NCBI RefSeq assembly: GCF_000013205.1
Contig: NC_007775.1
Coordinates: 1,112,501 to 1,176,500, forward strand
Direction: 5' to 3'
DNA: 64,000 bases
Origin: Synechococcus sp. JA-3-3Ab
GTDB lineage: Bacteria; Cyanobacteriota; Cyanobacteriia; Thermostichales; Thermostichaceae
Shown: in pieces, positions 9,734 to 22,819 of the stretch
How the letters are laid out: each line of letters opens with the position of its first letter
How positions within the stretch are numbered: position 1 is the first letter of the stretch
The notes under the pieces: generated by a model
Told to the model about the DNA's origin: nothing
The model's database searches: none
What the model saw: only the letters and a program-made list of their open reading frames with translations
Translations under genes and position numbers: made by a program

Positions 9734-11047
9734 TTAGGCGATGCCGGTTCGCTTCTGGGCTTCCTTACGGGAGACGGCTACATGGCGCAGGCCGGCGCGG
9801 ATCAGCTCCTGCTCGATCAAGGCGAAGAAGCGCTGCCGATCCCCGCTGCGCACCACGGCCAGATGGTGGGCTTCCGCCAGGGCGATGGGGTAGCCAAAGC
9901 CCTTTTGCACCTGGCTTAGCACTCCGGCCAGGGCCCGCTGCAGCAACTCGGCGTCTTGAGCCACCCAGGCGGGAAACTCTAGCCGGGCGATCTCCGGCAG
10001 GGATCCCTCCCCAGGGTTTGCGCCGACATTCAAGTAACAGCAGTGGATGTGGTGTTCCCCAAAAGTCTCCAAGACGCTGGCGCCACTGCGCCAGAGGGGG
10101 CTGCGCTCTCCCGGCTGCAGCAGGGATCCCCAAAAAACGCGATCTGCTAGGGGGGCAAAGGGCTGGCAGGGGGGAGTTTTCTCGCCGGCGCAGTAGCGAT
10201 AGCAGTCGCAGCCCAGGTAGGGACACAACCCCAGGCGCAGATAGTTGAGGGTTTCGCTGCTGCGGGAAGCGCTGATGTAGCCCACCAGGGGGATGCGAGC
10301 TGCCCGCAACTGCTCCAGAGTTGCCAGGATGGGATCCAGCCAGGGACGCTGGGCTGGCTTGGGCAGCGGCTCCAGCCCCCAGGGGATGAGGGATCCATCC
10401 AGCAGCGCTAGCACGGGGCGACTCCTAGGCAGCGGCAGGGCCAATTGGGCCAGCTCCTCCAGCTCTGCCTGAGCCCGCCGCAAAGCCAGCACCGCTTCGG
10501 CATCCAACGCAATCTCCCCCCCCTCCCCGCGATCTTCTTCCCCAAGGCCTACGGCCTGCCTACGCGATCGGCTGGGTCGGTGGCGAAGAGGGTGGAGGGC
10601 TGTTCCTGGAAGAGAGTTGGATCGCTCAGGTTGAGCAAAGGGCTCCTGCCCGTAGATCAGCAGGGGCTGGCTGTCCAGCAGCGGCCACTCTTGCGTGCCG
10701 TAGTGGAGAGCCACCCGCCCGATGTTGATGAGCGAGCAGTAGGCAATCTCGTGGTGGCTGGGCAGGATCTGGGAGCCGTCGGTGGCCACCACCGTGTGCG
10801 GCCCCTGCAAGGGCTCGACTTTGGGCAGGGATCCCCAGGTTTCCGGCGGCTCGGCGGGGCTGGCGCAGGTAAAGGCGAGATGGGAGCTCCACTCCGCCCA
10901 GCGCGACTGCCAGGTTTGGGGTTCTCGCTGCAGGCGGGCAAACTCCTGCAAGGCCAGGCGCAGACGCTCTTGGTTGGCCTTCGACTCCTGCTGCAGGTGG
11001 CGGGCAAAGGCGGGAATCTGCCCGCTCAGCTTAACCAGATCCAGCAT
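9734..11047 (-). CDS. NurA-domain nuclease
   Basis: NurA-domain proteins are 5'-3' nucleases; in archaea they work with HerA in end resection. The 437-residue product has an N-terminal helical region (MLDLVKLSGQIPAFARHLQQES) and then the two acidic motifs typical of the family: VVATDGSQILPSHHE (about residue 90) and LALLDGSLIPWGLEP (about residue 220). The ATG at 11047 overlaps the 3' end of the upstream tandem pterin-synthase gene by 17 bp, which suggests translational coupling. No HerA-like gene is visible in the window. The function is inferred from the domain only. Confidence 0.8.
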   Translation of the reverse strand: MLDLVKLSGQIPAFARHLQQESKANQERLRLALQEFARLQREPQTWQSRWAEWSSHLAFTCASPAEPPETWGSLPKVEPLQGPHTVVATDGSQILPSHHEIAYCSLINIGRVALHYGTQEWPLLDSQPLLIYGQEPFAQPERSNSLPGTALHPLRHRPSRSRRQAVGLGEEDRGEGGEIALDAEAVLALRRAQAELEELAQLALPLPRSRPVLALLDGSLIPWGLEPLPKPAQRPWLDPILATLEQLRAARIPLVGYISASRSSETLNYLRLGLCPYLGCDCYRYCAGEKTPPCQPFAPLADRVFWGSLLQPGERSPLWRSGASVLETFGEHHIHCCYLNVGANPGEGSLPEIARLEFPAWVAQDAELLQRALAGVLSQVQKGFGYPIALAEAHHLAVVRSGDRQRFFALIEQELIRAGLRHVAVSRKEAQKRTGIA

Positions 11048-11984
11048 AGGCGGCTGGCTCAGCCCTGCCGGCGGCCAGGGGCTCCACTTCGGAGGGATCC
11101 CTCTTGCCCTCGCTCGCGGGGTATGTGGTGGCAGCGGTAGCTGCGCCCAGCTCCTCTAGCGGAAACTCCCCGTAGACTTCGCTGCTGTTGTTGGGGCTCT
11201 CTTGCAGGCGAACCCGATGCAGTTGCACCCCCAGCTCGCGCAGGGGCAAAGTCAGCAGCCGCTGGACGTAGAGGGCGATGTTTTCGGCGGTGGGCACCAC
11301 CTGGGCAAAGTAGGGGACGTCTTTGTTCAAGAAAGTGTGATCCAGGGGCTTCACCACCTGCTCCTCAATCACCCGCTGCAGAGCTGCCAAATCCACGATC
11401 ATCCCTGTGCGCGGGTCGATGGATCCCTTGACGGTAATCTCCAGGCCGTAGTTGTGGCCGTGGCCGTGGGGGCGAGCGCAGAGGCCGTAGATGGCAGTGT
11501 TCTCTTCCAGGCTGAGGTGATCGAGGGCCAAGCGGTGGGCGGCGCTAAAGTGGGTGGCAACGGTCAAATAGGCTTGCATCGCTTCTCCTCGGTATTCGGC
11601 CCAAAGCTGGGGATCTTCGTAGAGGCGCACACTGCTGAGCGGCAGCGCGTCGGCTAGGCGCTGCCAGATGGTGTAGGCAATGAACTCGGTGGTGGGCAGG
11701 GTTTGGGCAAACTCTGGCCAGACTTGGTTGAGGTAGGCGAAGTTCAGTTCTTGAATCACCCGCTCCCGAATTACCTGCTTGACCTGGGAGAGGTTGAGCA
11801 CCATGCCGTACTCGTCTACCTCCCCCGTCAGGCCCACCTCCAGCACGTAGTTGTGGCCGTGGCCGGGAAAGCGGGCGTGGGAGCCGAAGCGGGCCAGGTT
11901 CTCAGCTTCGGAGAGCTCCGGCAGCCAGTAGCGGTGGCTGGCGGCAAAGTGGGCGCGGCGGTAGATGGTACAGGTTCTGGACAT
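11031..11984 (-). CDS. Tandem 6-carboxytetrahydropterin/6-pyruvoyl-tetrahydropterin synthase-like protein
   Basis: Members of this family convert dihydroneopterin triphosphate to carboxy- or pyruvoyl-tetrahydropterin, for queuosine or pterin synthesis. The protein is a duplication: each half has the zinc histidines (HFAASHRYW with GHGHNYVLEV, and HFSAAHRLAL with GHGHNYGLEI). The second half keeps the catalytic cysteine (YGLCARPHGHGHNY). The first has histidine at that place (FGSHARFPGHGHNY), so it may be inactive. I chose the ATG at 11984 (MSRTCTIYRRAHFAASH) because upstream codons add no domain. It overlaps the NurA-type gene by 17 bp. Confidence 0.88.
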   Translation of the reverse strand: MSRTCTIYRRAHFAASHRYWLPELSEAENLARFGSHARFPGHGHNYVLEVGLTGEVDEYGMVLNLSQVKQVIRERVIQELNFAYLNQVWPEFAQTLPTTEFIAYTIWQRLADALPLSSVRLYEDPQLWAEYRGEAMQAYLTVATHFSAAHRLALDHLSLEENTAIYGLCARPHGHGHNYGLEITVKGSIDPRTGMIVDLAALQRVIEEQVVKPLDHTFLNKDVPYFAQVVPTAENIALYVQRLLTLPLRELGVQLHRVRLQESPNNSSEVYGEFPLEELGAATAATTYPASEGKRDPSEVEPLAAGRAEPAAYAGSG

Positions 11985-12186
11985 GAGGGCTATGAGAGAA
12001 AGGGATCCCTCCTTCAGCATAAACTCCAAACCAGCACTGCCCCTGCGGCGAGGGATCCCTGCGCCTGGCTCGGCGCGCCTTCCTCCTGAAGCCCTTGGGG
12101 ATGGATGGCCAAAATCTCGCCCTAGGGGGCCAAGAGTGTGTCAACCTGGTAAAGGTAAGAAAGTCTTTGGGCCCGAGGGAGCGGCT

Positions 12187-16562: not shown

Positions 16563-18617
16563 CTAGGTGGAGGTTTCTGGCAACATCGGGCTAGAGGAAG
16601 CCAGCAGGTAAGCCCCGATGGCCTCTAAGCTGGGTGGGTGCAGAAAAGGGACGGTGACAATGGCCTGCTGGGGAAAGCGCTGGGGCAACTGGGCCAGGAT
16701 GGCCTGGTGGCGGCGCCGAAGAGCTGCACCAAAGGGGGTGGAATCCTCCGGCCACACGCGGTTGAGAACGGCATAGGGATGAGGGATCCCCAGGGCATCC
16801 AGTTCTGCCAGAAGGCGCTCAGTTTCCGCCAGAACTGCCTGTTCGGGGTTGAAGACGGGGATAAAGCTAGCAAACTGGGGATCCCGCAGCCGCTGCCGGA
16901 GCTGCCGCACCTGGGCCAAGAGATCCCGCAGCCGCTGCGCCCATTCTGGCCGGCCCACCACGTCGCGGTACTTTAGCCACAGCTTGAGGGCCAGGCTTAC
17001 CCAGCCTTCCAGGGCCTGCGGCATCTGCAAAAAGCGCAGGAGATGGCCGGTGGGGGCTGTATCCACCACCACCAGGTTGAACTGGCCGCTGGCCTCCTGC
17101 TCCAGCACCGTCAGCAGGGCCATCACCTCGTCCAGGCCCGGTGGAGCCATCTGCAAAAGCTGCCGCCAGGCCTGGGGGTCGTACTGAACCTCCACCCCCG
17201 CCGTCCCTTCGCCGGCCAAGATGGCCGCCACCTCTTCCAGGTACTCCTGCCGGAAGCGCTCCAGCACTGCCGCCGCCTCGATCTCCTGCCCCAGCAAATT
17301 GGGCAGCAGCGGCAGCGGATCTTGCCCCAATTTCACCCCGAACAGATCCCCCAGCGAGTGGGCCGGGTCGATGGAGACCAGCAAGAGCTGCCGGTCGGGA
17401 TGGCGTTGGGCCAAGTTCCAGGCCAGCGCCCCGGCCACCGTGGTCTTGCCTACCCCGCCTTTGCCTCCCACCAGCAGCAGGCGGATCCCTTGGGCCAAAA
17501 AATCTGGCAGGGCCACCCTTGGGGGGGAGGGGATCCCGCCGACAGGCTCCCCTGGGCTAGCGGGAATCTCTTCCAACTGCAGCAGCACCTCTGGCAAGGG
17601 ACGAAGCTGCTGCACCAGCTTGTCCAGGGCCGCCGGCCCAATGGGCTCCTCCAGTTGATAGGGACAAACCCAGATGGGATAGCCAGGCAGCTCCTCTTGG
17701 AGCGCTTTTAGCCAGCGCCGCTGTTCCTGCTGGCGGGCCAGGTAGAGGGGGGACGGCGGGATCCCAGACGACGCTCTCCCGCTGGCTCCCAACAACACCT
17801 GGTTGACCAACAGGCCGCCAATGGGCACCCGGCGGCTTTGCAGTTGTTGACAAAAGCGGCGCGTCTCCGCCACGCTCAACGGCTCCGGGATCAGCACCAG
17901 CCAGGCGGCAGTGCTCTCCGGGTCGGTGAGGCGGGCTTTGCCCCCCTCCAGCTCGCTCTGCAAGCGGGCCAGGAAGGCGTCGGCCTCATCCGGTCGATAG
18001 GCGCCCGTGAGGGATTGGACAACCTCGCGGTGCTTGGCCTGGAAGGTGGCAAACACCGCCAGCAAATTGTCGAGAAAGTCGGGCAGTTCCAACAGCCGCA
18101 GGGTGTGGCCGGTGGGGGCGGTATCCAGGATAACTGTATCCACCTCTTGGCCCGCCAGCAGCCGGTTGACCTCTAAGATGGCCATCAGCTCGTCCACCCC
18201 CGGCCAGTCCAGATCCCAAAGGGGCAGGAGATCTTCCTTGGCCAGCCAACTGCCCCGCTCGGCAATCAGCTCCAGAGCCGGGCCGTAGGTCTGCTTGAAA
18301 TCCTGCAGCAACACCTCGGCCTGGAGAGCCCGCACCTGCAAGTTGGGCCAATCCGGCAGGGGCTGGGGAACGTCGGCCACCGGGATCCCCAGCACATCCC
18401 CCAGGGAGTGGGCCGGATCGGTGGACAGGAGCAGCAGACGGCGCTCTGGTTGCGCCTGGGCCAGGTGACGGGCCAGGGCACAGGTGAGGGTGGTTTTGCC
18501 TACGCCCCCCTTGCCGCTAAACAGCAGCAGACGCTGGCAAGGAGAAAGGAGAGACAGGCGGAAAGCGCTCCCGCCACAATCGAGTTGAGCAGGCTGCAAA
18601 GGGATCCCTTCTGGCAC
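16563..18617 (-). CDS. Tandem ArsA/GET3-type ATPase
   Basis: A 684-residue protein with two complete ArsA-type domains. The first has FSGKGGVGKTTLTCALARHL, STDPAHSLGDVLG and DTAPTGHTLRLLELP. The second, from about residue 380, has VGGKGGVGKTTVAGALAWNL, SIDPAHSLGDLFG and DTAPTGHLLRFLQMP. Both deviant Walker A motifs are intact. ArsA pumps arsenite with ArsB; GET3-like members target tail-anchored membrane proteins. No arsB is near, so the pump role is not supported. Start GTG 18617. It follows the membrane-protein gene by 30 bp and may belong to the riboswitch-led run. Confidence 0.88.
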   Translation of the reverse strand: MPEGIPLQPAQLDCGGSAFRLSLLSPCQRLLLFSGKGGVGKTTLTCALARHLAQAQPERRLLLLSTDPAHSLGDVLGIPVADVPQPLPDWPNLQVRALQAEVLLQDFKQTYGPALELIAERGSWLAKEDLLPLWDLDWPGVDELMAILEVNRLLAGQEVDTVILDTAPTGHTLRLLELPDFLDNLLAVFATFQAKHREVVQSLTGAYRPDEADAFLARLQSELEGGKARLTDPESTAAWLVLIPEPLSVAETRRFCQQLQSRRVPIGGLLVNQVLLGASGRASSGIPPSPLYLARQQEQRRWLKALQEELPGYPIWVCPYQLEEPIGPAALDKLVQQLRPLPEVLLQLEEIPASPGEPVGGIPSPPRVALPDFLAQGIRLLLVGGKGGVGKTTVAGALAWNLAQRHPDRQLLLVSIDPAHSLGDLFGVKLGQDPLPLLPNLLGQEIEAAAVLERFRQEYLEEVAAILAGEGTAGVEVQYDPQAWRQLLQMAPPGLDEVMALLTVLEQEASGQFNLVVVDTAPTGHLLRFLQMPQALEGWVSLALKLWLKYRDVVGRPEWAQRLRDLLAQVRQLRQRLRDPQFASFIPVFNPEQAVLAETERLLAELDALGIPHPYAVLNRVWPEDSTPFGAALRRRHQAILAQLPQRFPQQAIVTVPFLHPPSLEAIGAYLLASSSPMLPETST

Positions 18618-18647
18618 AGGTCACCCCCATTGTGGCCTGGATCTCCC

Positions 18648-19301
18648 TTAGGGATGCTCCAGATCAGCGAAGTTTCCCCTCTCCCACCACAACCGGCGTC
18701 CTCTGTCCCACGCCAGCAGCGCGTGGATCCCAAGCCAAAATCCCGTCCACAGCCAGTTGTCCAGCCAGATCTTGGCCAAGATGGGCAGGGTCAAGCCCTC
18801 CGTTCCGCCCAGAACCAGGCCGGCTGCCAAGATCAGCCCTTCAAAAGCAAGGAACCCTAGGATCAGCATGGCTGGGATCCAAAGATAGTTCAGCAGCAAT
18901 TGCCTTGGCCTAATAGGTTTGGACTGAGAAAACAGAGGTCGGTAGCCGGCAGCAAAAGCGACCCCCACCGTGCCGATCCCCAAGACCAACCCCCAAGCAA
19001 AAGAATCAGGTGTACGGGGATAGTTGTGCCAGGTGTAGCCAAAGATTTGGTTGGCCAGCCAAATCATCGAAGCGCTAATAATTGCCCTTTGGCGAGTTAA
19101 CGTGGTGCCCGCGATGATGCCAACAGTTACAAAAGGAAGCGTGCAGGTATAGGCAATGTTGCTCAGGCAGCCGATGGTGGTAAATAGGCTGGGCCAAAAT
19201 CGACCTTGGGCTAGATCTCGGCTGGCTTGGATCCAAATTACTTCTGGGATCCCGCGGCGAGGCTTGGGGATGGACTGGACAAGAGCTTGTAGGCTAACCA
19301 T
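18648..19301 (-). CDS. Unidentified membrane protein in the cobalamin-riboswitch run
   Basis: I do not recognise this 217-residue protein. It has an amphipathic N-terminus followed by about five hydrophobic segments: around SLFTTIGCLSNIAYTCTLPF, FAWGLVLGIGTVGVAFAAGY, LLLNYLWIPAMLILGFLAF, LILAAGLVLGG and WLWTGFWLGIHALLAW. No transporter motif stands out. The stop of the upstream 2Fe-2S gene is only 3 bp before its start, so the two are almost certainly co-transcribed, and the run begins at a cobalamin riboswitch. A role in corrinoid or cobalt uptake is a reasonable guess, not shown. Confidence 0.72.
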   Translation of the reverse strand: MVSLQALVQSIPKPRRGIPEVIWIQASRDLAQGRFWPSLFTTIGCLSNIAYTCTLPFVTVGIIAGTTLTRQRAIISASMIWLANQIFGYTWHNYPRTPDSFAWGLVLGIGTVGVAFAAGYRPLFSQSKPIRPRQLLLNYLWIPAMLILGFLAFEGLILAAGLVLGGTEGLTLPILAKIWLDNWLWTGFWLGIHALLAWDRGRRLWWERGNFADLEHP

Positions 19302-19304
19302 AGG

Positions 19305-20174
19305 CTAATCTCCAGGAAAAAGGTGAGCTTTCAAGGGGCAGTTCTTTAGCAGATGCTCCTGGACAATTTGCCGCGCTACTTGGGGGGTAACCCGCTTGTA
19401 CCAGGTGCGATCTCCGGAGTAAAAAACCACCGGCCCTTGTTGACAGACTTCTAGGCATCCGGAAGTAATGACCTGAATATCCAAATTGGCTTCCCGCAGG
19501 GCCGATTGCAGAGCTTCCACAACGGGCTGATAGTGGCGAGAAGGATAGCAGCGGCTGGAACGGCAAACCGCCAAATAGGGCCGCTTGAGGGGGTTATCTT
19601 CATACGGGATCCGCTCTTTTCCCTCGACGTAAATGGCCCGCAGGCGTTCATAAAGGGAGAGCTTCTGATAGTCGGCTTTGCCTTCGGGCAGGTAGTCTTC
19701 TCCTGGCCCCAAAAAGGGACTGGGCAAAAAGATCTGCAGCAGCGATTCCTCTGCTCCGTTCCAAAATTGGATCCCCCATTGGCGAGGCTGGCCCTGCGGA
19801 TTGAGGCGGCGATAGAGGGCGGCGCGGCCGACCAATCTTTTGCGGCGCAGCTCAGGTGGAGTTCTGCTGTAGGGGCCGCCCTGGTGCTCTTCTAGACACA
19901 GGTGCAAATGCCAAGTTTCGGTGGCCACGGTCAAATAGCCGTCGTAGAGCACACAGAGAGCAGGGGGATCCTTGAAGGCCGCCTCCAGCACTCCTCCCTC
20001 CACCACCTGGCCCACTTGGATCTCGGCCCAGCGCTCCTGAAAGAGCTCATAGAGCAATGGCCCAAGACAGTCGATGTGAGCCGGGATCCCTTCGTAAACG
20101 GTTGTCCAGCCGGTGGGGGAAACCTCTTGCCAAGTCTGGTTTAAGGGCGTGATCCAGGGACTGAAAGCGGCCAT
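19305..20174 (-). CDS. 2Fe-2S thioredoxin-like ferredoxin protein with unknown N-terminal domain
   Basis: A 289-residue protein. The last 90 residues form a thioredoxin-like [2Fe-2S] domain with four cysteines in the usual spacing: LAVCRSSRCYPSRHYQPVVEAL, then TSGCLEVCQQGPVVFYSGDRTWY. The first 190 residues (PLNQTWQEVSPTGWTTVYEGIPAHIDC...) are of a type I cannot name. It starts 9 bp after the DUF1636 gene, another cysteine protein of similar fold, and is followed at 3 bp by the unknown membrane protein. The setting suggests a redox or metal-handling step tied to cobalamin. Confidence 0.78.
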   Translation of the reverse strand: MAAFSPWITPLNQTWQEVSPTGWTTVYEGIPAHIDCLGPLLYELFQERWAEIQVGQVVEGGVLEAAFKDPPALCVLYDGYLTVATETWHLHLCLEEHQGGPYSRTPPELRRKRLVGRAALYRRLNPQGQPRQWGIQFWNGAEESLLQIFLPSPFLGPGEDYLPEGKADYQKLSLYERLRAIYVEGKERIPYEDNPLKRPYLAVCRSSRCYPSRHYQPVVEALQSALREANLDIQVITSGCLEVCQQGPVVFYSGDRTWYKRVTPQVARQIVQEHLLKNCPLKAHLFPGD

Positions 20175-20183
20175 AGGTTGCTC

Positions 20184-20609
20184 CTATTGGATTGGCGGAA
20201 TGCGGGCAATCACCCCCTTTTTGATGGGGCGCTCTGCCCAGGGCAGGATCCCATCGGGCTTTGTCAAATACAGCTCCGCCGTTTGTAAGATTGGCTCTAC
20301 ATCTTTTGGATCGAGATCGCCAAAGACATAGGTCATCTTCCCCGGGGCTGCTAGGGCAATCACGCAGGCATGGCTGCAGCCGCTCATACAGGCAACTGGC
20401 TTCAGGTGCAATTGGGAATTGAGCACTTGCGATTGCAAGGCGGCCAGGAGCATTTCTCCTTTGCTAGTCCCTTCTTTTTGGCCGTTCACCCAGCGAGATC
20501 CGCAGGTGGTGCAGATCCAGAGGTAATGTTCGGCCTCAGCTTGAGCCGAAGTTGTCGATGGAGAAAAGTTAGGAGATAGAGAGTTGGTTGAGATCGCCAT
20601 AAGTTGCAT
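20184..20609 (-). CDS. DUF1636 metal-binding/ferredoxin-like protein
   Basis: A 141-residue protein with WICTTCGSRW near the N-terminus and PVACMSGCSHACVIALAAPGKMTYVFGDLDP in the middle; the cysteines fit a thioredoxin-like [2Fe-2S] or metal site. DUF1636 genes commonly sit beside cobalamin genes, which agrees with the riboswitch-led context here. ATG 20609 is used; ATG 20600 is possible. It lies 88 bp after the TonB-dependent receptor and 9 bp before the next cysteine protein. Confidence 0.8.
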   Translation of the reverse strand: MQLMAISTNSLSPNFSPSTTSAQAEAEHYLWICTTCGSRWVNGQKEGTSKGEMLLAALQSQVLNSQLHLKPVACMSGCSHACVIALAAPGKMTYVFGDLDPKDVEPILQTAELYLTKPDGILPWAERPIKKGVIARIPPIQ

Positions 20610-20697
20610 CCAAACTAAACCGTAAAGCAGACAATCAACTTGGAAAGTTCTCGCTAAAAGTGGTCAGCCGGAGAGTTAAAAACAGCCTGGGATATCG

Positions 20698-22641
20698 CTA
20701 AAATTGCCCCCGCAAGTTCACCCTCAGCGTGCGGCCAACTCCGGGATAGCCGGGGAAAACTTCATACTGCTCATCCAGCAGGTTGTCGATCCCCAACTCT
20801 AGGCTCAGGGCCTCAGCCAACGGGATCCCGCCGCGCAGAGCCACGGTGGTGTAGCCTGGCAGGGATTCCGTATTGGCATTGTTGGTAAAAAAGCTCCCAA
20901 TGTGATGGACCAAAATCGAGCCGTACCAGCCCTGCTCGTGGCGGTAGCTTAGGCCTAGATTGAAGCTATCGGCTCCTACAAAGGCTAGCTCTTTGCCAAC
21001 TGTGGCCGGGTTAAGGGCAGCGCGGATGATGGGATCATTGAGGGTATAGTTGGCAAAAAGCGTCCAGTTTTCCCCCAAACGCAAATCTAAAGCCGCTTCC
21101 AGGCCGGTATATTCGACCAGCCCGATATTTTCATAGGTTCCCCGGCGCGGCCCAAGGCTGACAAAGGTGATGCCATCGCGGATGCGGTTGTGGGCAAAAG
21201 TTAAGCGCAGCAGGCCAAAATCTCCCAAGGTTTGATCCAGGCCGATGTCCAAGCTCTCCCCTCGCTCTGGGCGGAGATTGGGGTTGCCATCCACTTCAAA
21301 AAAGCCGCGCAGCCGGAAGAACAATTCCGAGATCAAGGGAGTGCGAAAGCTGCCGGCGTAGCTGGCCCTCAAGGTAGTTCCCTCGGCAACTGCCCACCGG
21401 ATCCCCACAGCCGGCGAGGTGGCCGAGCCGTTGGCCAAACTGCTGAAGTCCTGACGGATGCCCAGGTCGAGGTGGAACTGGGGATCCGGGCTGTAGTCCA
21501 GGCGGGCAAACAGGGCCCCCTGGTTAACCGTATCGTCGTAGTTGATATTGGCAGAACCCCTGGCAAAAGAAAAAGTCGTATTGCGGGCTGAGATAGAGCG
21601 ATAATCTGCCCCCAAAACTCCCTCTAGGTTTTCGCCGGCCTGCCAAGCATATTGAAGCTGGGATCCCCAGCCATTGCGCAAGATGACGTCGCGGGATCCC
21701 TGGCTTTGCGGAGCGCTGAAGCGGTAGTTGAGATCGTCCAAAAAGACTCTTGCCTGCAGGGATCCTGTTTCCTGAGTCCACAGCCAACTGAGATCCAGCA
21801 GCAGATCGTTGGTGTTTTGCTCTGCGTCGGGAGAGGGAAACTCTACACTACCGGGCACGCGAAAGGCTTTGTTGAGGTAGAGGGCGTTGGCTGTTAGGAC
21901 TTGATCTTCGGCCAGTTGCCAGGTGAGCTTGGCCTGCAAGTTGTGGTACTCCACCGCCGAGTTTTCCCGCCTGCCTGACTTGCCCAGCCGCTCAATGGCA
22001 AAGGGAAAGTCGTTGTTACTTTGCAGACGGCGATAGCTGAGCACCCAGCCCAGATCCTGGGCTTGGCCGCGACTTTGGATCCCTTGCTCATTGAGACCGT
22101 AGCTGCCGACCGCCGCTTCCAGCACCGTCTCCGTTTCTGGCTGCGGCTCCACCGTGACGATGTTGATCACGCCGCCAACGGCGTCTGAGCCGTACAGGGT
22201 AGAGCCGCCGCCGGGGGAGACTTCAATTCGCTCGACGACATCGGTGGTGATTTGCGAGAGGTCAAACCCCCCGAAAAAACCCAGATCGTTGAGAGGGCGG
22301 CCATCCAAGAGCACCAATACCTGCGCCGTTCGCGCCCCTCGCATGAATTGAGAGCTAAGAGCTCCCAACTGAGTTCCCGCTGTGCCATCGCTGAGGATCC
22401 CGGGCAAGTAGCGCAGGGCTTCCTGCACCGTCCTTGCCCCTTGCTGGCGCATCTGCTGGCGGGTGATGACATAGACTGGGCGGGAAGACTCTCGCAGCAG
22501 GCCGGGACGGCGAAACGGGGTGGTGACGGGTTGATTCAAAATCTCGGCGCTGAGGCCGGTATCCAAGATTGCCTGCCCCCAGGCCGGGATCCCCAAACTC
22601 AAGATCCCCAGCCCAAGGCTGAGACATACAGTTACTTTCAT
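20698..22641 (-). CDS. TonB-dependent outer-membrane receptor, probable cobalamin (BtuB-like)
   Basis: Outer-membrane beta-barrel for TonB-driven uptake. The 647-residue precursor has a signal peptide (MKVTVCLSLGLGILSLGIPAWG), a plug domain with PVYVITRQQMRQQGARTVQEALRYLPGI, QFMRGARTAQVLVLLDGRPLND and GGGSTLYGSDAVGGVINIVT, then a long barrel ending in LRVNLRGQF with a terminal aromatic residue. I chose the ATG at 22641, preceded by AGGAG; the longer frame would run into the riboswitch. The cobalamin riboswitch directly upstream is the basis for assigning a corrinoid substrate. The petals for an inner-membrane ABC transporter are not in the window. Confidence 0.9.
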   Translation of the reverse strand: MKVTVCLSLGLGILSLGIPAWGQAILDTGLSAEILNQPVTTPFRRPGLLRESSRPVYVITRQQMRQQGARTVQEALRYLPGILSDGTAGTQLGALSSQFMRGARTAQVLVLLDGRPLNDLGFFGGFDLSQITTDVVERIEVSPGGGSTLYGSDAVGGVINIVTVEPQPETETVLEAAVGSYGLNEQGIQSRGQAQDLGWVLSYRRLQSNNDFPFAIERLGKSGRRENSAVEYHNLQAKLTWQLAEDQVLTANALYLNKAFRVPGSVEFPSPDAEQNTNDLLLDLSWLWTQETGSLQARVFLDDLNYRFSAPQSQGSRDVILRNGWGSQLQYAWQAGENLEGVLGADYRSISARNTTFSFARGSANINYDDTVNQGALFARLDYSPDPQFHLDLGIRQDFSSLANGSATSPAVGIRWAVAEGTTLRASYAGSFRTPLISELFFRLRGFFEVDGNPNLRPERGESLDIGLDQTLGDFGLLRLTFAHNRIRDGITFVSLGPRRGTYENIGLVEYTGLEAALDLRLGENWTLFANYTLNDPIIRAALNPATVGKELAFVGADSFNLGLSYRHEQGWYGSILVHHIGSFFTNNANTESLPGYTTVALRGGIPLAEALSLELGIDNLLDEQYEVFPGYPGVGRTLRVNLRGQF

Positions 22642-22654
22642 CCGGTTGCTCCTG

Positions 22655-22673
22655 CTTCCGTGCGACGCGGAAG
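22655..22673 (-). promoter_or_regulatory. Hairpin just upstream of the receptor ribosome site
   Basis: Six-base-pair stem CTTCCG / CGGAAG with a 7-nt loop, between the riboswitch core and the AGGAG of the receptor gene. The position fits an expression platform acting on translation. No run of T follows, so it does not look like an intrinsic terminator. Confidence 0.45.
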
Positions 22674-22689
22674 GGCTAAGCTTTGAGCC

Positions 22690-22819
22690 AAAGCCGCAGG
22701 CGGGCATCCTGACTGAGGGCCTCAGCCCATCACAGTTGCGGCACAGCGCCGGATTTGCACCGGACTTTCCCCATTGCTTGCCCTGGCTGATCCCCAGGAC
22801 AACCTGACGGCACGGCTTT
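22690..22819 (-). promoter_or_regulatory. Cobalamin riboswitch
   Basis: On the minus strand the conserved core is read in order: GTCAGG near the 5' side, GGGGAAAGTCCGGTGCAAAT, CCGGCGCTGTGCCGCAACTG, TGATG, and AGTCAGGATGCCCGCC. These are the B12-box and conserved elements of the cobalamin riboswitch. The outer stem AAAGCCG / CGGCTTT closes it. It ends about 50 bases before the TonB-receptor start, and it predicts repression of the operon when cobalamin is high. Confidence 0.95.

Follow-up and report, generated by a model that had tools for sequence, protein, structure and literature searches.

The stretch of DNA analyzed here, referred to as the window, comprises 64,000 nucleotides of the genome of Synechococcus sp. 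JA-3-3Ab (contig NC_007775.1, positions 1,112,501 to 1,176,500 of the forward strand), and carries on its minus strand an operon headed by a cobalamin riboswitch. The riboswitch aptamer (RF00174; 22682..22822 of the window) scores 54.8 bits against a gathering cut-off of 31.5, with a leader RNA whose folding stability is not unusual (z 0.83). It is followed by the genes for a TonB-dependent receptor (20698..22641; PF07715 and PF00593), a cysteine protein of the DUF1636 family with CxxC and CxxxCxxxC motifs (20184..20609; PF07845, 119.7 bits against a cut-off of 31.6), a protein in which a DUF7676 domain (PF24724) is fused to a thioredoxin-like [2Fe-2S] ferredoxin domain (19305..20174; hereafter the FeS protein), and a membrane protein with six predicted helices that falls in no named family (18648..19301), which we term MEM and regard as a candidate cobalamin carrier. 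The four genes are separated by 88, 9 and 3 bp, and the order riboswitch-receptor-DUF1636-FeS-MEM is kept in all six genomes of the source genus, riboswitch equivalents included, indicating that the arrangement is not due to chance. Two genus members have damaged loci (L023:4193-4653 in G007 and L024:8945-9460 in G005), in which the receptor gene is gutted or the DUF7676 gene is short by about 110 residues; MEM is intact in both.

The original prediction, made from the letters of this DNA alone, had rightly placed a B12 riboswitch at the head of the operon, where it likewise stands in all six genus genomes, and had given the gene order and spacings as we find them. Its membrane protein of five helices has six membrane helices in the predicted model. 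Its '2Fe-2S protein' does contain a [2Fe-2S] domain, judged by fold and cysteines, but the description was incomplete in that a DUF7676 domain (208 bits) is also present. The interval proposed for the whole, 16563-22819, encloses the operon but also spans a tandem ArsA/Get3-type ATPase gene, which three of the six genus members have at this place.

The start of the receptor is most likely the ATG at 22641, to which we have reset the gene: an AGGAG lies 7 nt upstream of it and a signal-peptide-like N-terminus follows, while the ATG at 22707 of the longer open reading frame (ORF) falls within the riboswitch aptamer. The best NCBIfam model for the receptor is the BtuB equivalog TIGR01779, though at 180.9 bits it remains below the cut-off of 599.7; a receptor from an operon encoding the ATP-binding cassette (ABC) importer BtuF-BtuC-BtuD (BtuFCD) scores similarly, at 182.1 bits. 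In a phylogenetic tree, the receptors of the MEM operons and of the BtuFCD operons form one clade of 29 rows, with a Shimodaira-Hasegawa-like approximate likelihood ratio test (SH-aLRT) support of 100, apart from the haem-type receptors. The designation of the receptor as BtuB2-type refers to this grouping with receptors of riboswitch-BtuFCD operons, the Anabaena BtuB2 sequence itself not being among the rows.

Distribution of MEM and its exchange with BtuF-BtuC

MEM has no match in Pfam or NCBIfam, and a search of the genome contigs with it recovered one near relative only. A profile made from the genus members detects it in 37 of 388 cyanobacterial genomes. The neighborhoods of 39 MEM loci were fetched, scanned with Rfam and their ORFs clustered, revealing a cobalamin riboswitch upstream and on the same strand in 24, including every member with a TonB receptor; the other 15 are six thrS2 loci and nine of mixed kind. 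The contexts fall into two sets. One is the arrangement of riboswitch, DUF1636 (in part of the cases), TonB receptor, DUF7676/FeS protein and MEM, which is seen in all six genomes of the genus and at eight loci besides. In the other, with or without a riboswitch, MEM adjoins HupE (L075, L076, L083), CbiMNQO together with CobW (L084; assigned by eye, except CbiQ, which was found by search there), CobW (L078, L087), ZnuA/ZnuB-type importers, an ALAD gene of the hemB type, or occurs in the order thrS2-MEM-DUF1636. The protein sequences show a corresponding bipartition: 15 full-length rows with a cysteine (YTCTxP and variants), hereafter Cys-type, and 21 with a histidine (YxHxP), hereafter His-type, lie on opposite sides of a branch with 100/98 support. 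In the window, the cysteine in question is Cys53, whose codon (19143..19145, minus strand) was located by motif alignment and tree; it lies in the predicted outer loop 1 and is kept throughout the Cys subfamily.

DUF7676 occurs in 46 of the 388 genomes, in 45 of them above cut-off. Among these 45, 31 have BtuC without Cys-type MEM, 13 have Cys-type MEM without BtuC, one has both and none has neither, an exclusion significant by Fisher's test (p=1.9e-10, or 2.4e-6 with one count per genus and state). For this count, BtuC was identified by a profile that gives its members 367-555 bits and other FecCD permeases at most 210. The exchange is also apparent in the gene order. In all of 20 sampled DUF7676 loci lacking MEM, a BtuF-type binding protein directly follows DUF7676, and in 19 a FecCD/BtuC permease comes next, the 20th genome having BtuC elsewhere; a riboswitch was found in the fetched stretch of 16 of them. 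MEM thus occupies the BtuF-BtuC slot of the operon. Some of the BtuFCD loci (L124, L127, L131, L132) have a calcineurin-like phosphoesterase gene between btuF and btuC.

In the sole genome with both components, G317, MEM lies on a small contig whose DUF7676 protein hardly differs (branch lengths of 0 and 0.003) from the one in G296, a genome assigned to a different family; hence, the contig in G317 has probably been mis-binned. In both genomes (loci L085 and L086) MEM is split by a frame change, so that it has no full-length frame and was assigned to the Cys-type from its context; it is probably a decaying gene. G338 retains the MEM operon in a genome that lacks FecCD permeases altogether. In the DUF7676 tree, five changes are needed to account for the rows linked to MEM, at least two of them forced by well-supported branches; the exchange of MEM and BtuF-BtuC accordingly took place, or was transferred, more than once. 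DUF1636 and the FeS protein also accompany BtuFCD, and are therefore shared partners of both import routes that stand outside the replacement itself. It is MEM alone that the genomic swap singles out.

Predicted folds and a candidate import route

The predicted model of MEM (predicted local distance difference test, pLDDT, 88.5; predicted template modeling score, pTM, 0.83) has helices at residues 35-50, 57-67, 70-90, 98-118, 133-164 and 172-214. In a comparison with VIA-align, the top 13 rows are all S-components of energy-coupling factor (ECF) transporters, namely FolT, RibU, PanT and ThiT, with Z-scores of 9.1-11.1 and 3.3-4.1 Å over 141-163 residues; the next, unrelated row has a Z-score of 8.7. 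Sequence identity to the top S-component rows is 5-13%, and two MEM profiles, A1 and A2, had no match among PDB chains with E values of up to 10, in a set not confirmed to include the BtuM chain. Given the uniformity of these rows, and despite the modest Z-scores, we accept that the predicted fold of MEM is that of the ECF S-components, as in the B12 carrier BtuM. Basic residues are found at both termini and in the 119-132 loop, which fits an orientation with loops 1, 3 and 5 outside. Cys53 and the conserved P56, Y94 and P95 are located in loops 1 and 3.

The FeS protein, with a predicted model of pLDDT 90.3, is clearly bipartite. Residues ~17-185 correspond to the DUF7676 domain (208.4 bits, E 6e-62, cut-off 27) and match the cytosolic haem carriers ChuX, HutX and HemS (Foldseek E 6.7e-5 for ChuX and HutX; Z 10.5). 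The C-terminal part, residues 197-289, resembles thioredoxin-like [2Fe-2S] ferredoxins (Z of 14.8 to 5abr), and four cysteines, C204, C209, C240 and C244, are invariant in 29 aligned rows; the [2Fe-2S] model PF01257 itself reaches 22.1 bits, under its cut-off of 24.8. Since a predicted tetrapyrrole-type pocket is here joined to a one-electron carrier, the model suggests that this protein could act as a cytosolic corrinoid receiver and reductase. Our literature search turned up no publication that describes MEM or DUF7676.

The location of MEM in the exact position of BtuF, BtuC and BtuD points to it being, probably, an unrecognized B12 carrier. We accordingly favor, with reasonable though far from full confidence, the reading that the operon serves as a unit for cobalamin uptake, with MEM having taken over from the BtuF-BtuC-BtuD ABC importer. 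Beside the observed operon, riboswitch, swap, predicted fold and Cys/His split, we infer cobalamin as the cargo, a contact of the cysteine with cobalt, a reductase role and an energy source along the following lines. Low cellular cobalamin would cause the riboswitch to permit expression, and the TonB receptor would move cobalamin into the periplasm. MEM might bind it at the outer face, with Cys53 of loop 1 plausibly serving as a cobalt ligand by analogy to Cys80 in BtuM, and could then pass it inward, either unaided, in the manner suggested for BtuM, or together with the stand-alone EcfT of the cell. On the cytosolic side, the DUF7676 domain would receive the corrinoid; the fused [2Fe-2S] domain, perhaps with DUF1636 as a helper, may then reduce the cobalt, remove the upper ligand and so trap the vitamin. 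A more encompassing proposal is offered tentatively, as somewhat less likely than not: that MEM represents a hitherto unrecognized family whose members carry cobalamin as single components, which displaced BtuFCD repeatedly and whose Cys form split from His-type metal carriers, with a HutX-like [2Fe-2S] partner that strips and reduces incoming corrinoids.

If true, this would be a second family of S-component fold, distinct in sequence, that has taken over B12 import, and the operon would specify a route of B12 import and processing not described before. It also provides hypotheses for the function of DUF7676, including where it occurs with BtuFCD, and for the Cys/His split as one between vitamin-linked and metal-linked subfamilies.

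Genomic setting and alternative explanations

The genome, a single contig of 2,932,766 bases, has four RF00174 riboswitches, of which the remaining three precede two metE-like paralogues and one CbiX-like chelatase gene (identified by eye). The two metE-like paralogues lie about 20 kb apart (L005 C1:145313; L006 C1:166790), each with its own cobalamin riboswitch. MetH is present, and the genome therefore probably uses cobalamin; a class II ribonucleotide reductase was searched for in this genome and not found. The sole full FecCD permease of the genome (C1:2050020) scores 184 bits against the BtuC profile and adjoins a TonB receptor scoring above the cut-offs for haem/haemoglobin receptors. 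A second BtuF-like binding protein (C1:1860363) was considered as a partner and rejected, as it lacks an obvious signal peptide and its gene stands at a distance. The genome also encodes CbiM-CbiQ and a stand-alone EcfT-family protein.

Could MEM instead be a permease for cobalt(II) or another divalent metal that feeds internal corrinoid synthesis? Riboswitch control would then be explained by cobalt being the limiting precursor, and the loss of BtuFCD would be coincidental or reflect a shift from scavenging to synthesis. This draws on the His-type sister clade, with its HupE, CbiMNQO-CobW and thrS2 neighbors, on the control of thrS2 by Zur and zinc in Anabaena (PMC4787780), and on CbiM and HupE likewise being small metal carriers. 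In a review, alr4031, the BtuF-type gene of Anabaena, also appears under a Zur regulon (PMC6103462), in line with a possible link to metals. However, a free ion would have no need of the TonB receptor and the putative tetrapyrrole-binding protein that accompany the Cys clade, the genome already has CbiM-CbiQ, and the strict exclusion with BtuC would be unexpected; in other genomes MEM adjoins complete cobalt carriers, and hence has not replaced those. On balance, we consider this explanation unlikely. Less probable still is that MEM is a mere accessory and that the FecCD importer at C1:2050020 carries both haem and cobalamin. The best NCBIfam match of its permease is indeed the BtuC model (though at 256 bits against a cut-off of 461), and it has a TonB, receptor, binding protein and ATPase of its own nearby. 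Yet its 184 bits contrast with the 367-555 of BtuC members, its receptor is of the haem type, the Rfam scan detected no cobalamin riboswitch near it, and G338 has the MEM operon without any FecCD permease. A variant compatible with the uptake unit we favor is that MEM is a group-II S-component dependent on a shared EcfT/EcfA, which would make it the new substrate subunit of an ordinary ECF transporter. The S-component-like fold and the stand-alone EcfT gene are in line with this; but the operon has no ECF module gene, genes of the EcfT family occur in all genomes examined and hence do not discriminate, and the CbiQ beside MEM in L084 is part of a CbiMNQO set. We hold this variant to be rather unlikely.

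Several observations weigh against cobalamin carriage by MEM. Its Z-scores of 9-11 are below the level of about 13 that the tool treats as safe for helical matches, and Foldseek by itself is weak, with the best hit to an S-component, PanT, at E 0.86. BtuM is absent among the fold-comparison rows listed for the model. The His-type sister clade adjoins zinc and cobalt genes (thrS2, znuABC, hupE, cbiMNQO, cobW), a sign that the MEM family at large may handle metal ions. The Cys-type MEM genes of L064 and L067 lack a neighboring receptor gene. Finally, G051, with receptor and MEM and without DUF7676, keeps BtuC elsewhere, so that the swap pattern is not absolute outside the DUF7676 genomes. On the other side, the original prediction of an inner-membrane carrier replacing BtuCD gains support from the BtuF-BtuC slot and the exclusion of BtuC. 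The two outcomes it had named as contrary are not what we find: most MEM loci have a riboswitch upstream, and a btuCDF set serving the receptor is not found elsewhere in this genome, where the sole FecCD permease stands beside a haem-type receptor. Its suggestion of electron-carrying partners in the replacement needs refining: the FeS protein would do more than carry electrons, and both it and DUF1636 go with BtuFCD as well.

The His-type MEM in the thrS2-MEM-DUF1636 units (L065, L070-L073, L088, with DUF1636 seen in L065, L070, L071 and L073) may be an S-component-like carrier of zinc or cobalt, in a zinc-stress context. A recurrent protein of about 150 residues, often as a tandem pair, is found near cobalamin riboswitches (L061:8590-9497, L064, L075, L076, L081, L120-L123, L125, L126); the member searched had no Pfam match. 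Adjacent to the operon, the ArsA/Get3-type ATPase gene (16563..18617, minus strand; PF02374), fused head-to-tail in tandem, is probably outside the unit: we rejected it as a constant energizer of MEM, as three of the six genus genomes lack it at that place. Elsewhere in the window there is an array of clustered regularly interspaced short palindromic repeats (CRISPR) with nine DR57-type repeats (RF01370; 27463-28102), and a single frame (11031-12029) that by eye appears to have two halves resembling 6-pyruvoyl-tetrahydropterin synthase.

Comparison with known systems

The closest parallel to the operon is the alr4027-alr4033 cluster of Anabaena PCC 7120, in which a riboswitch is followed by alr4027, btuB2, the ferredoxin-like alr4030, btuF, btuC and btuD, and whose expression is raised by cobalt starvation; BtuB2 matters there for rapid uptake of cobalamin when cobalt is scarce, and mutation of btuD lowers the rate of uptake (PMC10878165). 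Both have the riboswitch, a gene for a putative metal-binding protein, a BtuB-type receptor and a ferredoxin-like gene, and the Anabaena gene order is that of loci such as L136 in our set; by its position, alr4030 should be a DUF7676 protein. The difference lies in the absence of BtuF, BtuC and BtuD from the MEM operon, with MEM in their place.

At the level of individual proteins, the DUF7676 domain shares its predicted fold with the ChuX/HutX/HemS cytosolic haem carriers, but differs from them in being fused to a thioredoxin-like [2Fe-2S] ferredoxin and in being tied to cobalamin import rather than to haem. Likewise, MEM shares a predicted fold over about 150 residues with the ECF S-components FolT, RibU, ThiT and PanT, but lies in a corrinoid operon without adjacent module genes. 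The nearest functional analog would be BtuM of Thiobacillus denitrificans, a solitary S-component-like B12 carrier with an essential cysteine that is a cobalt ligand (PMC6072759). Like BtuM, MEM is small, has six predicted helices in an S-component-like arrangement and a conserved loop cysteine, and is expected to carry cobalamin without BtuCD. It differs in having this cysteine in loop 1, as opposed to loop 3 of BtuM, in having no detectable similarity to solved chains, and in belonging to a cyanobacterial operon in which a DUF7676/[2Fe-2S] reductase is its proposed partner.

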